Source of the DNA: a bacterium
GTDB lineage: Bacteria > Patescibacteriota > Minisyncoccia > UBA6257 > WO2-44-18
Reading direction: 5' to 3'
Assembly: GCA_023244815.1 (NCBI GenBank)
Contig: JAHFLQ010000005.1
Coordinates: 1-44,756, forward strand
Length of the DNA: 44,756 bases
The notes beneath the pieces were generated by a model that saw only the letters and a program-made list of their open reading frames with translations, was not told where the DNA came from and ran no database searches. Positions within the stretch are counted from its first letter, which is position 1. Every line of letters begins with the position of its first letter. Below are positions 27,509 through 42,000 of the stretch, in pieces. A program made the position numbers and the translations under genes.

Positions 27509-27922
27509 CTAATTGCTAATCTCTGTTTTCTCTATTCGCCCGCCGGCGGCCTCTATTTTTTTCTTTGCCGATTCGGAGACAGGCAGCCCCTCGACGGTAA
27601 TCGCCATTTTTACCTCACCGTCACCGAGAATTTTTACCTTTTTGCCCAGAATCCGCTCATTGATTATGCCGTCTTTCGCGTACTTTTCCAAATCGCCCAC
27701 ATTCAAAACCGCTTCAGCCTGACTAAAAGGCCGATTTTTAATACCGCGCAGTTTTGGAAGCCGCATATAAAAATCTCGTTCGGCTGGTCGAATACGCCGG
27801 CCGGCGCGGGCCTTTTGTCCTTTCTGTCCTTTTCCAGAAGTTGTCCCACGCTTGCCGCTGCGGCCAACGCGAGTTTTCTTTTCCGTCAAAGGATGGGCTG
27901 GTTTTAGTTCGTGAAGTTGCAT
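27509..27922 (-). CDS. rplO: Ribosomal protein L15
   Basis: 137 residues, slightly shorter than the usual 144. Opens MQLHELKPAHPLTEKKTRVG and has the basic Gly-rich stretch GKRGTTSGKGQKGQKARAG with the usual C-terminal GLPVSESAKKKIEAAGG. A late-assembling 23S rRNA binder. It is preceded not by rpmD but by a 226-bp structured element, and its ATG lies 3 nt after the base of that element's last helix with no clear Shine-Dalgarno sequence. Confidence 0.95.
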   Translation of the reverse strand: MQLHELKPAHPLTEKKTRVGRSGKRGTTSGKGQKGQKARAGRRIRPAERDFYMRLPKLRGIKNRPFSQAEAVLNVGDLEKYAKDGIINERILGKKVKILGDGEVKMAITVEGLPVSESAKKKIEAAGGRIEKTEISN

Positions 27923-28148
27923 GCGAATTTTGTCTAAATTTTCGAGCTCAACTGTAGCGAAGAAAATTTAGCCACAAAATTGAGCACCCCGTTAGATGCG
28001 AAAAAGGCTACGGGGATACCCTTGATTCGACTTTCTTTCATTACATTTATTATCATTTTGGTTATTGGTTGTTTGGTCGCTATCTAACGGGGTAAAGGTT
28101 TGGTTTTGCAAAATTCTATGCCTTTGGCTTGAATTTTGCAACCAAGTC
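27923..28148 (-). promoter_or_regulatory. Three-helix RNA element upstream of rplO (copy 1)
   Basis: Read on the minus strand: helix B (28108-28116 with 28131-28139, extended by 28100-28105 with 28140-28145), helix A (ccccgttagat, 11 bp, 27987-27997 with 28082-28092, enclosing 84 nt), linker TGCTC, helix C (27926-27943 with 27962-27981, 18 bp, two bulged bases, loop with TCGCTAC), then 3 nt and the rplO ATG. The copy upstream of fusA has the same plan with compensatory changes in helices B and C. It starts right after the rpsE stop codon and occupies the place of rpmD. Likely a cis-regulatory RNA; a mobile element is the alternative. Confidence 0.7.
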
Positions 28149-28727
28149 CTATACTTTTAAATTCTTCAGCGCGGCAATAGTCGCGAGGGCGTTGGTTAAT
28201 TTATTCGGCGTGCGGCCTAGGCATTTGGCAGTAGCATCTTTGATGCCGGCCATAGACAGCACTACCCGGACAGCGCCTCCTGCCTTTAAGCCATGCCCCT
28301 CAACGGCCGGCTTGATTCGAACCTTAGCCGCGCTGAATTTCGCCTCTACCTCGTGCGGGATTGTTCTGCCTTTTAAGGTAATATTAAATAAATTTTTTAC
28401 GGCGTCATTTTTGGATTTAGCAACGGCGGACTGCACATCCAGCCCCTTTGCGATGCCAACGCCAACCCTCCCCTTCTCGTCTCCAAGAATCACTGTGACG
28501 CGGAAACGGAAACGTTTGCCGCCGGCCACTACGCGGGTAACGCGCCGCAAATCTAAAACTTTGTCTTTTAACCCCATGGGGTTTTGCTCTTTCGGTTTGC
28601 CGCCAAAACGGCGATGGCCGCCCGGGCGCCCGCCGAAACCACGGCCCATTGGCTTGCCGGCAGGCATGGTCGGACGATTTCCGTCTGGCTGAGTATTGGC
28701 TGAAACTGTTGGTTTTGTGTTTTCCAT
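28149..28727 (-). CDS. rpsE: Ribosomal protein S5
   Basis: 192 residues against about 167 in E. coli: a Gly/Pro/Arg-rich N-terminal extension (1-50, GKPMGRGFGGRPGGHRRFGG) precedes the standard core VLDLRRVTRVVAGGKRFRF, VGVGIAKGLDVQSAV and AGGAVRVVLSMAGIKDATAK. 30S protein involved in decoding fidelity. It ends directly at the structured element. Confidence 0.95.
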   Translation of the reverse strand: MENTKPTVSANTQPDGNRPTMPAGKPMGRGFGGRPGGHRRFGGKPKEQNPMGLKDKVLDLRRVTRVVAGGKRFRFRVTVILGDEKGRVGVGIAKGLDVQSAVAKSKNDAVKNLFNITLKGRTIPHEVEAKFSAAKVRIKPAVEGHGLKAGGAVRVVLSMAGIKDATAKCLGRTPNKLTNALATIAALKNLKV

Positions 28728-38498: not shown

Positions 38499-38534
38499 AA
38501 CTAGGTTATCTTGCGATCGTCAGTTAACCTAGTT
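38499..38534. repeat. Inverted repeat IR-1 upstream of the PaaX-like gene
   Basis: aactaggtta (38499-38508) and taacctagtt (38525-38534) form a 10-bp palindrome around 16 bases. It shares aactaggttatct with IR-2 at 39139-39173. It overlaps the spacer and both hexamers of the promoter, so it may be an operator. Confidence 0.75.
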
Positions 38535-38539
38535 ATAAT
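38511..38539 (+). promoter_or_regulatory. Promoter of the PaaX-like gene
   Basis: TTGCGA (38511-38516) and TATAAT (38534-38539) are 17 bp apart. The start is expected about 6 nt before ATG 38552, so the leader is very short. A protein bound to the IR-1 palindrome would block it. Confidence 0.65.
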
Positions 38540-38551
38540 AAATTTCAATTT

Positions 38552-39136
38552 ATGCGCGGCGAACGATTGTTAAAAGCTTTGGACATTATTGAAACGCTCA
38601 CCTGTAATACGGCTGGGTTTATGGAAGCATTTCTGTCCAGCTCGAAAAGTAAGTACTTGCCCTTATTAAGATTTCGGCCGCGTATTTATAACAGTATGTC
38701 AGAGGGTATCCGAAAAGATGTAAAAGAAAAACAGGAAAGACAGAGGATATATGATCTAATTTCAAGACTCCAAGAAGATGGGCTGATTGAAAAAAGTAAG
38801 CCTGGCCGCTGGTTAATAACGGCCAGGGGTAGGTTAAAGAAAGATAAATTAAAATCTGAATTGGCCAATAGATTGCCTGATCAAAGTTATAAAACTAAAC
38901 CATCTAAAGAGATTATAATTTTTAGTTTTGATATACCAGAAAAATTGAGAAATAGGAGAAATTGGCTTAGATCCACTCTTAAAAATATTGGGCTCTCAAT
39001 GTTGCAGAAAAGTGTTTGGCTCGGCAAGGTAATAATGCCGAAAGATTTTATGGAAGACCTCAAAAAACTGCAATTGCTAAATTATATTGAGATTTTTACC
39101 GTCGGAAAGGCCGGCACTATCAAACAGGTAGTCTGA
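38552..39136 (+). CDS. PaaX-family-like regulator (winged helix plus Cas2-like domain)
   Basis: 194 residues. Residues about 50-105 look like a winged helix (YDLISRLQEDGLIEKSKPGR, WLITARGRLKKDKL); residues about 115-194 look like the Cas2-type ferredoxin fold of PaaX C-terminal domains (KEIIIFSFDIPEKLRNRRNW, LRSTLKNIGLSMLQKSVWLG, VIMPKDFMEDLKKLQLLNYI). Family members act as dimeric repressors; true Cas2 is a nuclease of CRISPR adaptation, but no CRISPR or other cas gene is here. The gene is flanked by IR-1 and IR-2 and lies between fusA and tuf, opposite to both. Autoregulation through IR-1 is likely. Confidence 0.75.
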   Translation: MRGERLLKALDIIETLTCNTAGFMEAFLSSSKSKYLPLLRFRPRIYNSMSEGIRKDVKEKQERQRIYDLISRLQEDGLIEKSKPGRWLITARGRLKKDKLKSELANRLPDQSYKTKPSKEIIIFSFDIPEKLRNRRNWLRSTLKNIGLSMLQKSVWLGKVIMPKDFMEDLKKLQLLNYIEIFTVGKAGTIKQVV

Positions 39137-39138
39137 CT

Positions 39139-39173
39139 AACTAGGTTATCTGACGGTCGTCGGATAACCTAGT
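39139..39173. repeat. Inverted repeat IR-2 downstream of the PaaX-like gene
   Basis: actaggttatc (39140-39150) and gataacctagt (39163-39173), 11 bp perfect, around tgacggtcgtcg. Same arms as IR-1. There is no T tract after it and no other terminator between this gene and the convergent fusA end. Confidence 0.75.
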
Positions 39174-39211: not shown

Positions 39212-41323
39212 TTACTTTTTACCCTCCTTGATAAGTTGGGCGACGTTCTGCGGAACCGGTTCGTAATGGTCAAATTCCATCGTGAAGTTACCGCGGCCCT
39301 GGCTCATGGAGCGCAGTTTTGTCGCGTAACCGAACATTTCGGAAAGCGGCACCTTCGCATCAACCACTTTAATGCCGCCAAGGCGGTCGCTCATCTCTTC
39401 TATGCGGCCACGCTTAGAACTTAAATCGCCAGTAACGTCGCCTAAATATTCAGCTGGCGCTAGCACTTGCAATTTCATCACCGGCTCAAGAAGCACTGGC
39501 CTGGCCTTGTTGGCCGCTTCTTTAAAAGCCATGGACCCGGCGATTTTGAAAGCGGCCTCCGAAGAGTCTACTTCGTGGAAAGAGCCGTCAAAAAGCGTTA
39601 CTTGCACGTCGATCATTGGGAAACCGGCAACCACGCCCTTGGTCATCGCCTCTTTTACGCCTTTTTCCGTTGGCGCGATGAATTCCTTTGGCACCGCGCC
39701 GCCTTTAATTTCGTCAATAAATTCAAAACCTTTGCCGCGTTCCAGCGGCTCCACCTTCAGCCAAACATGGCCGTACTGACCCTTACCGCCGGACTGGCGG
39801 ATATACTTACCTTCGGCTTCCGCTTCGGCCTGCACGGTTTCTTTATAGGCAACCTGGGGACGGCCGACATTGGACTCCACACCAAACTCGCGCTTCATCC
39901 GATCTACGATAATTTCCAGGTGTAATTCGCCCATACCGGAGATGATCGTCTCTCCTGTTTCCGGGTCTCCCGCGACGCGAAAAGTTGGGTCTTCGTCGGC
40001 CAAACGCCGCAAAGCCAGACTCATTTTTTCCTGGTCAGCTTTAGTTTTCGGATCGATGCGTATGCCAATGACCGGCTCTGGGAAGGTGATCTTTTCTAGG
40101 ACGATCGTTTTTTCAGAATCGCAGAGCGTATCGCCAGTGGTGGTATCCTTTAGGCCGACCAGCGCGCCGATTTCGCCGGCGTAAATCTCATCTATTTCTT
40201 CGCGCTGATTGGCATGCATTTTCACGATGCGGCTGATGCGCTCTTGTTTATTTTTACTGGAATTTAAAACGTAGCTTCCTTTCTTGAGGGTGCCGGAATA
40301 AACACGGAAGAAGGTCAGGGAACCGACGAATGGGTCGGTAGCAATCTTGAAAGCCAGCGCCGCGAACGGTTCGGCATCGCTAGCTTTTCTAACAATATCC
40401 GCGCCCCTAGAATCGGTGCCTTTAGCCGGGCGGATACCATCCATATCCACCGGAGAGGGCAGATAGTCCACCACGCCGTCGAGTATCAGCTGAACGCCCT
40501 TATTTTTTAAAGCAGAACCGCAAAAGATCGGGATAATTTTTAATTTTAGGCAAGCGGCGCGAAGGAGAGTTTTTAATACTTCCAGGCTCGGCTCTTTGCC
40601 TTCCAAATACTCGCTCATAGCTTTGTCGTCCTGTTCAACAATTTTCTCCACTAAAGCGTGGCGGTATTTTTTTGCCTCGGCTTGCCACTTTTCTGGAATG
40701 TCCAGTTCAACTATTTTTTCTCCCTTTTCGCCTTCAAAGTGGTAGGCTTTCATCCGCATCAGATCGATAACACCCTCAAAGGCAGATTCCGCACCCATCG
40801 GAATTTGCACCGGCATCGCGTGCGGATTCAAGCGCTCATGAATGGACTTCACGTCGGCAACAAAATCCGCGCCCATCCGATCCATTTTATTAATGAAGCA
40901 GATGCGCGGTACGCCATAGTCGTCGGCATAACGCCAGTTGGTTTCCGATTGCGGCTCCACGCCAGAAACGCCGTCAAACACCACCACCGCGCCATCCAGC
41001 ACGCGGAGCGAGCGCTTTACTTCCACGGTAAAATCAATGTGGCCGGGGGTGTCGATCAGATTGAAGCGAACCTCTTTGCTTTTATCGCCGTGGGCGTAGG
41101 TCGGGACCCAGAAAGCGGTCGTGGCGGCGGCGGTGATAGTGATGCCGCGCTCGCGCTCCTGTTCCATCCAGTCCATCACTGTATCGCCAGTGTGTACTTC
41201 GCCGATTTTGTGGGAAACACCAGTATAAAAAAGTACGCGCTCGGACACGGTCGTCTTGCCCGCGTCGATGTGAGCGATAATTCCAAAATCACGGATTCTA
41301 TCTAAAGGGTATAGTCTGGGCAT
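39212..41323 (-). CDS. fusA: Elongation factor G
   Basis: 703 residues. G1 [17 protein letters not shown], effector [15 protein letters not shown]3 [13 protein letters not shown]4 [10 protein letters not shown]; domain IV with [15 protein letters not shown] and domain [16 protein letters not shown]. Drives translocation. GGAG lies about 10 nt upstream of ATG 41323 but is paired with CTCC in helix C of the upstream RNA element, so translation is probably controlled. Third gene after rpsL and rpsG. Confidence 0.98.
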
Positions 41324-41532
41324 GCCAATTTTATCTCCAAGCGTAGCGAGGAGCTATAAAATTGAGCACCCCGTTAGATGCGGGAAAAGCTAGAAGGCTT
41401 TCATCCATTCGACTATTATTTTTTGATTTCTTATTTGATAGACTGTTCATAGATTTACCGATATCTAACGGGGTAAGGGTTTTGTTACTGAAATTCGTTC
41501 GGTTATCACCTCCGAATTTCAGACAAAGCCCC
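41324..41532 (-). promoter_or_regulatory. Three-helix RNA element upstream of fusA (copy 2)
   Basis: Minus-strand order: helix B (41488-41497 with 41513-41522, extended by taaggg-ttttgt 41474-41485 with its partner at about 41523-41535), helix A (identical ccccgttagat stem, 41369-41379 with 41463-41473, enclosing 83 nt), linker TGCTC, helix C (41327-41338 with 41350-41363, two bulged bases, loop TCGCTAC), then 3 nt and ATG. Twenty-five bases around the helix A arm equal copy 1, and helices B and C keep pairing through changed bases. The outer part of helix B reaches into the rpsG stop codon. Helix C includes the GGAG of fusA. Confidence 0.72.
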
Positions 41533-42000
41533 TTACCAGCTGAAGTGGGCAAAAGCACGGTTGGCTTCGGCCATGCGGTGCATGTCCTGCTTCTTTTTAA
41601 TCGCGGCACCTTCATTTTTGGAAGCTAGTATAATTTCCTCGGCTAGTTTGGCAGCCATTGGTTTTCCTTTTTTGGCCCGGGCAACGGAAATAATCCAGCG
41701 AACTGCTAAAACGAATTTTCGGTCCGGACGAACTTCTATCGGTACCTGATAGTTAGCGCCACCAACGCGCCGGGTAGCGGTTTCTACCGCCGGAGCGGCA
41801 TTCTCCATTGCTTTTTCAAAAACTTTCATAGGATCTTCTTTCGTGTCCTTTTGGATTTTCTCGAAAGCATCATACATTATTTTTTCCGCCGCCCATTTTT
41901 TACCATCCTGCATAAGATAGTTAATGAATCGGCCAACAATAACGCTGCCGTGTTTCAAGTCCGGCTTCCGTTCTCTTTTATAATTTTGTTTTTTGCGCAT
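41533..42000 (-). CDS. rpsG: Ribosomal protein S7
   Basis: 155 residues. VGRFINYLMQDGKKWAAEKI, NAAPAVETATRRVGGANYQV, VPIEVRPDRKFVLAVRW and the C-terminal HRMAEANRAFAHFSW. Organises the 30S head; in E. coli it represses the str operon. The stop codon is part of the next RNA element. Confidence 0.97.
   Translation of the reverse strand: MRKKQNYKRERKPDLKHGSVIVGRFINYLMQDGKKWAAEKIMYDAFEKIQKDTKEDPMKVFEKAMENAAPAVETATRRVGGANYQVPIEVRPDRKFVLAVRWIISVARAKKGKPMAAKLAEEIILASKNEGAAIKKKQDMHRMAEANRAFAHFSW

Follow-up and report, generated by a model that had tools for sequence, protein, structure and literature searches.

Results

Two copies of one structured element lie between translation genes

The window analyzed here is the whole 44,756-nt stretch of contig JAHFLQ010000005.1. 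On its minus strand, the junctions rpsE/rplO and rpsG/fusA, whose flanking genes we confirmed, each carry an element of the same architecture. As described in an earlier note on this DNA, both copies contain a stem A with 11-bp arms (CCCCGTTAGAT and ATCTAACGGGG, identical in the two copies), a gene-proximal helix C and a helix B upstream (Table 1). TGCTC directly follows the 3' arm of stem A, and helix C has a 2-nt bulge and the word TCGCTAC in its loop, in both copies. The MFE z-scores of the two segments were −5.4 and −6.6, and no shuffled sequence folded as well. Rfam 15 gave no match at the gathering score in the window, none for the rplO copy at E values up to 10, and none in 11 loci.

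The ends of the element differ from the earlier description as follows: First, helix C is indeed the gene-proximal helix but does not end 3 nt before the ATG; its TGC pairs with GCA, placing the A of the AUG inside the helix. Second, the upstream gene's stop codon, TAG in rpsE and TAA in rpsG, marks the start of helix B. This end had been missed in the earlier reading, as had an alternative pairing of helix C (C*) and a short upstream ORF, both treated below. Since the A of the AUG lies within helix C and the upstream stop opens helix B, the element in the window corresponds exactly to the stretch from stop to start.

Elsewhere in the window, positions 38499-39173 encode a 194-aa protein with a PaaX/Cas2-like domain (PF20803, E = 8e-12). 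The gene lies between two 36-nt palindromes that are in inverted orientation and 86% alike, and the unit looks small and mobile.

Table 1. Features of the two window copies and their downstream genes (R1 and R2, models of helix C with the ATG and of helix B; see text)
Feature	Positions	Strand	Details and basis
Helix B, rpsE-rplO copy	28093-28153	-	rpsE stop TAG (28149-28151) near 5' end; R2 match 28093-28153; fold
Stem A 5' arm CCCCGTTAGAT, rplO copy	28082-28092	-	sequence pattern
Stem A 3' arm ATCTAACGGGG, rplO copy	27987-27997	-	sequence pattern; 84 nt enclosed
Helix C (TGC...GCA), rplO copy	27922-27986	-	final A belongs to the rplO AUG (27920-27922); R1 match 27920-28006; covariation
Alternative helix C*, rplO copy	27946-27985	-	GCTCAATTTTGTGGC (27971-27985) with GCTACAGTTGAGC (27946-27958); excludes helix C
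Short ORF MIINVMKESRIKGIPVAFFASNGVLNFVAKFSSLQLSSKI*, rplO copy	27934-28056	-	predicted; runs through stem A 3' arm and most of helix C; ends 11 nt before rplO ATG
rplO (L15), downstream gene	27509-27922	-	Pfam PF00828, E = 1.1e-12
Helix B, rpsG-fusA copy	41474-41535	-	begins with rpsG stop TAA (41533-41535); R2 match 41474-41535
Stem A 5' arm, fusA copy	41463-41473	-	sequence pattern
Stem A 3' arm, fusA copy	41369-41379	-	sequence pattern; 83 nt enclosed
Helix C, fusA copy (shorter upper stem)	41323-41368	-	ends at the A of the fusA AUG (41321-41323); R1 match 41321-41388; fold
Short ORF, fusA copy	41331-41450	-	predicted; same frame relative to the element; ends 7 nt before fusA ATG
fusA (EF-G), downstream gene	39212-41323	-	Pfam GTP_EFTU, EFG_III, EFG_IV, EFG_C

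The element recurs in one orientation before gene starts

This genome holds at least five full copies, two of them in the window. Identical stem A arms are found at two more sites, before ftsH and between pheS and pheT, and a copy with one altered arm base precedes a VirB4-like ATPase gene. Each of the five has the orientation of the gene that follows it and extends to the ATG of this gene. Homologues in other families precede a CorA-like gene, rplX, an AI-2E permease gene and the gene after virB4. From eight copies we built a covariance model of helix C plus the ATG (R1). In the order, it matched 103 of 243 genomes at E ≤ 0.001, one of them with as many as 18 copies; in the class, it matched 54 of 238 at E ≤ 1e-5. 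In a phylum-wide sample, R1 matched only 3 of 287, two of which are this genome and another member of the same order. The recurrence anticipated by the earlier note was therefore borne out, with many more copies, nearly all in one orientation before gene starts.

The proposed covariation was significant as well. In helix C, 96.2% of the cells are paired and 14 pairs have changed on both sides; among 21 B helices, 97.8% of the cells pair and 15 of the 23 pairs have changed on both sides. A model of helix B (R2) matched every one of the 12 carrier genomes tried (12/12). Inspecting 11 R2 loci that had no obvious R1 partner, we found that the sense-oriented ones mostly had a variant or disrupted helix C downstream. 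The "leaders" of the window are members of a large, apparently undescribed repeat family in Patescibacteria; no description of the family was found in the literature searched, which is weak evidence of absence as subscription papers and preprints were outside its scope.

Individual loci show further arrangements. One copy (L300, G011:C29) has a long insert in the loop of helix C, with both C arms kept. At G000:C2:59071-59300, two helix-C matches on opposite strands lie back to back with 61 nt between them, the arrangement that a divergent gene pair should show. At G000:C7:77389 (L012), a bare hairpin, CCCCGTTAGAT-10 nt-ATCTAACGGGGTGCTC, has neither B nor C.

Both ends of the element are tied to codons

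Almost all distinct strong R1 matches (134/137) end at a gene start, supporting the earlier claim of a recurrent structured element that lies directly upstream of start codons and is able to hide the start. The ends fall into two start registers, ...TTGGCATG (GGCATG) in 102 elements and ...TTATGGCA (ATGGCA) in 25. In the ATGGCA register, these six bases are the first of the gene itself, and CAT in the 5' arm faces the ATG, all of which is then paired. An SD-like 4-mer at positions −16 to −4 is present in 1 of 134 elements, compared with 11 of the 51 listed window genes, and the single positive is of the fusA type. The GGAG that the earlier note regarded as hidden is thus present near fusA, but it is an exception in the family.

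At the other end, 103 elements have a clear upstream gene, and its stop is the first codon of helix B, in the form TAA(A)GGGCTT, in about 55 by a count made by eye and in 42 by a strict pattern. Moreover, R1 matches helix B and R2 matches helix C, each on the opposite strand, indicating that B and C are homologous in inverted orientation and face outward from stem A. The family combines terminal inverted repeats with several near-identical copies per genome, as a MITE does.

Helix C has a conserved alternative, C*

Besides its partner arm, the 5' arm of helix C (GCTCAA...GTRGC) can pair with the loop of the same helix (GCYAC...TTGAGC), and this second pairing, C*, is mutually exclusive with helix C. 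TCGCTAC, read earlier as a free loop word, can in fact pair with the GTRGC of the 5' arm; the C* pairing explains both this word and the constant bulge. When each arm was scored with its own and with swapped loops (one element per genome, 55 genomes), the mean z was 9.8 and the minimum 8.5, and no permutation scored as high, in tests from which genome relatedness is not fully removed. In a 25-sequence alignment, C* pairs in 92% of the cells as against 16-43% for slid versions; since C and C* share the 5' arm, their covariation is not independent. In predicted folding, the 5' part alone reached −12.8 kcal/mol, or −8.5 with swapped loops, and the full element −19.4. For the rplO copy the calculated values were about −21 for C and about −16 for C*, and in the fusA copy the alternative fold is weak in calculation. 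A mirror switch was looked for in helix B, and no matching alternative was found (p = 0.20). An H-type pseudoknot of the C* loop with the 3' arm was set aside on loop-length grounds. The element thus has two conserved, mutually exclusive pairings, one of which covers the start site, an arrangement expected of a translational RNA switch.

Stem A varies freely and shares its arm with MITE-like inserts

Stem A arms elsewhere are quite different from those of the window: among arms of 7 bp or longer, we counted 48 distinct ones. Of 125 elements, 60 (48%) have exact arms of 9 bp or longer immediately ahead of TGC, compared with 3.4% when upstream regions were swapped. A definition of the leader by CCCCGTTAGAT was rejected, since the arm varies freely among the copies and also ends MITE-like inserts in many phyla. 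These CCCCGTTAGA...TCTAACGGGG inserts, about 90-115 bp long, are a MITE-like family with an arm in common with stem A of the window copies; perfect 4-bp direct repeats (YNNR) flank 77 of 146.

The CCCCGTTAGA inserts were seen in Omnitrophota, Planctomycetota, Deltaproteobacteria, Patescibacteria and others, with diverse interiors and a length that stays near 100 bp. Several (L017, L020, L021, L022, L027, L030, L052, L064, L119) hold a whole tRNA gene; the tRNA-bearing inserts, from Patescibacteria and a spirochaete, sit in the apparent anticodon region of another tRNA gene. ARAGORN confirmed the inner tRNAs, and the joined flanks give an outer tRNA in some cases only. Other inserts often lie right at start codons, as ATGAA-insert-TGAA (L016, L018, L032, L321, L327). 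The sequences duplicated there include ATGA in L321 and TATG before rplO in G033, so that the direct repeat restores the start codon.

The rplO copy was gained, and the stems of the family suggest a DNA layer

At the rpsE-rplO junction, tabulated for 29 genomes, the element is present in this genome only. The gap is mostly 2-14 nt in the tabulated genomes (e.g., TGAT-ATG or TAAAT-ATG), indicating that the rplO element was gained. At rpsG-fusA, one other genome (G024) has a stretch of the same end, ...AGACAAAACTAAGC-ATG. Near-identical copies occur within genomes, namely those before rplO, ftsH and the VirB4-like gene here and five in G005, whereas the pheT copy resembles copies from other families. 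The similarity of the copies and the gain fit spread by copying. A by-eye comparison of filled and empty rplO sites showed no target-site duplication around the full B-A-C. The Y1 transposase (PF01797) is absent from this genome and from the carriers G002, G011, G033, G118, G176 and others, and no transposase was linked to the element; a REPIN served by a Y1 transposase was rejected on this ground.

Helix C contains 20 G-U against 2681 Watson-Crick pairs (2701 standard pairs), the tRNA stems of the same loci contain 35 against 778 (813 pairs), and C* tolerates G-U (174 among 1466 pairs), a rough comparison given that base composition differs and that the C* scoring scheme itself allows G-U. 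Helix B has five one-sided and 85 two-sided changes. The near absence of G-U in helix C suggests that selection, or a copying process, acts on the DNA and not on RNA alone. We read this as two layers, near-perfect inverted repeats that are kept as DNA (or for which a perfect duplex is needed) and an RNA-like C* on the start side only. The scarcity of G-U in B and C, set against its free use in C*, thus gives a handle on DNA-level versus RNA-level selection.

These data bear on the small mobile repeat that the earlier note had named as the alternative. Gain at tight junctions, near-identical copies and inverted-homologue ends agree with it, but the copies are not scattered at random. In its strict form, the element would be a purely selfish palindromic repeat (MITE/REPIN-like) that survives only where genes are unbroken, with hairpins serving a mobilizing enzyme as single-stranded or cruciform DNA and with an incidental RNA effect. 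The Watson-Crick-only stems B and C would suit such a repeat, as would the arm sequence shared with inserts flanked by 4-bp direct repeats. However, survival at harmless sites alone would give variable gaps, whereas nearly all matches end at the ATG. The alternative pairing on the start side only, with its tolerance of G-U, also speaks against a purely selfish repeat, as do the lack of a whole-element target-site duplication and the missing Y1 transposases here and in several other carriers. We therefore consider the purely selfish form unlikely.

A short ORF and the order B-A-C suggest other possible roles

The short ORFs of the two window copies have about 40 codons each, lie in the same frame and stop 7-11 nt short of the gene. 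In each of 125 elements, TGC at the A/C boundary is preceded by G or A, making a GTG or ATG codon (CTC...), and in 95 of them this frame runs on without a stop almost to the gene. Translation of the short ORF might unwind helix C and allow reinitiation at the AUG a few bases on, a coupling that may coexist with the switch. There is a precedent in Salmonella mgtB, in which a translated intergenic ORF opens a hidden start (PMC8092293). However, the boundary G or A may be there merely to close stem A, the frame is open in part because of the conserved word GTAGCTAA, which places stops in the other two frames, and some copies (L126, L153) have no usable start codon upstream. Since sequence constraints can produce the pattern, we take it as a suggestive sign of coupling and not as proof, and we regard leader-peptide coupling as rather improbable.

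The order B-A-C between genes could also indicate a module for mRNA processing or stability, as could the high regularity of the stems next to both genes and the long exact arms seen in roughly half of the copies. In such a module, RNase III would cut the long, perfect stem A; the upstream message would then end in B as a protective 3' hairpin, and the downstream message would begin with C as its 5' hairpin. However, roughly half of the copies lack a long stem A and a number have no recognizable B, and the module would leave C* and the inclusion of the AUG unexplained, which makes it an improbable account of the family.

The downstream genes are varied

The genes downstream of the element, named from their protein starts, include rpsG, rpsS, rpsM, rpsI, rpsL, rplM, rplO, rplP, rplU, rplK, rpmA, rpmF and rpmG, together with nusA, nusB, nusG, rpoC, secA, tig, clpB, aspS, mutM and pilin genes; ftsH and a corA-like gene are further examples. 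In a Pfam scan of the downstream proteins, ribosomal proteins accounted for at least 34 of 121; they are the largest class and are enriched, as by our estimate ribosomal-protein genes make up roughly 7% of such a genome. The element is not confined to the operons of any would-be regulating ribosomal protein, and the identical hairpin type precedes dozens of unrelated genes, at odds with the earlier idea of a leader peculiar to translation genes. The autoregulatory leader suggested earlier, with a ribosomal protein or EF-G as its ligand, could draw on the enrichment of ribosomal proteins, but the breadth of the downstream genes rules it out as a general role, one structure precedes dozens of mostly non-ribosomal genes within single genomes and no Rfam leader matches, leaving it hardly tenable.

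Discussion

We interpret the family as a MITE/REPIN-like gene-junction element of Patescibacteria, found in one order and more sparsely in its class, that carries a bistable translation-start switch, a reading to which we assign a probability of roughly 60%, with the role inferred from structure and position. The element is neither a ribosomal-protein leader nor a plain repeat. It would replace the few bases between co-directional genes and supply its own translation-start region, with the 5' hairpin B carrying or abutting the upstream stop, the variable inverted repeat A in the middle and the 3' hairpin C ending at the downstream start. During transcription, the 5' arm of C would pair first with the nearer loop segment, forming C*, which would leave the region before the AUG single-stranded and let a ribosome start with no need of a Shine-Dalgarno sequence. 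Helix C, the more stable fold, could form and close the start site after the 3' arm has been transcribed. If both folds form in cells, C* would be the ON and C the OFF state, and the balance between them would set how strongly the downstream gene is translated and keep this gene apart from the one upstream. The copies themselves would move or spread as DNA.

The element resembles several known systems in part. REPINs or REP doublets (BIMEs), mobilized by RAYTs, are likewise inverted pairs of palindromes with a variable middle, extragenic, multi-copy and predicted to fold in ssDNA or mRNA (PMC3116915), but here one end is bound to start codons and the other to stop codons, there is a conserved second fold on one side, and the genome has no Y1/RAYT. 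Bacterial MITEs (PMC10969869), including the CCCCGTTAGA inserts, have inverted-repeat arms, and the insert arm is that of stem A in this genome; those inserts are ~100 bp with 4-bp YNNR repeats, whereas the full B-A-C is about 210-235 bp and has none. The metastable start-site hairpins of the Helicobacter aapA3 mRNA are also mutually exclusive, lie near the start and could act during transcription (PMC6733600). In contrast to such switches, the present element is common to dozens of unrelated genes per lineage, is delivered by a repeat and has no SD, and its function is putative. The TAACTGA repeats of Beggiatoaceae occur genome-wide and end a few bases before gene starts, including those of fusA and ribosomal-protein genes, mostly without an RBS (PMC4679880), but they are short direct repeats without such structure in an unrelated lineage. 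Finally, integron attC sites are imperfect hairpins reaching from the stop of one gene to the next start, and the window arm reads GTTRRRY...RYYYAAC, whereas the element sits between housekeeping genes in conserved operons. An attC origin, considered for GTTAGAT/ATCTAAC, was rejected, as the arms of most other copies have no GTTRRRY core.

A bolder reading is that a DNA-mobile repeat carries a complete, SD-independent bistable start switch, and that its spread rewired core-gene translation across the class through co-transcriptional refolding, with neither protein nor ligand. We hold this to be possible but doubtful; if true, the rewired core genes would include those for ribosomal proteins, RNA polymerase and secretion. 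Patescibacteria are very abundant, with tiny genomes and few known regulators. A structured start-site element common to many core genes of each genome would give these bacteria an extensive and so far unnoticed layer of translational control. It would also be a rare example of a spreading repeat that furnishes essential genes with their start region rather than being merely tolerated nearby.
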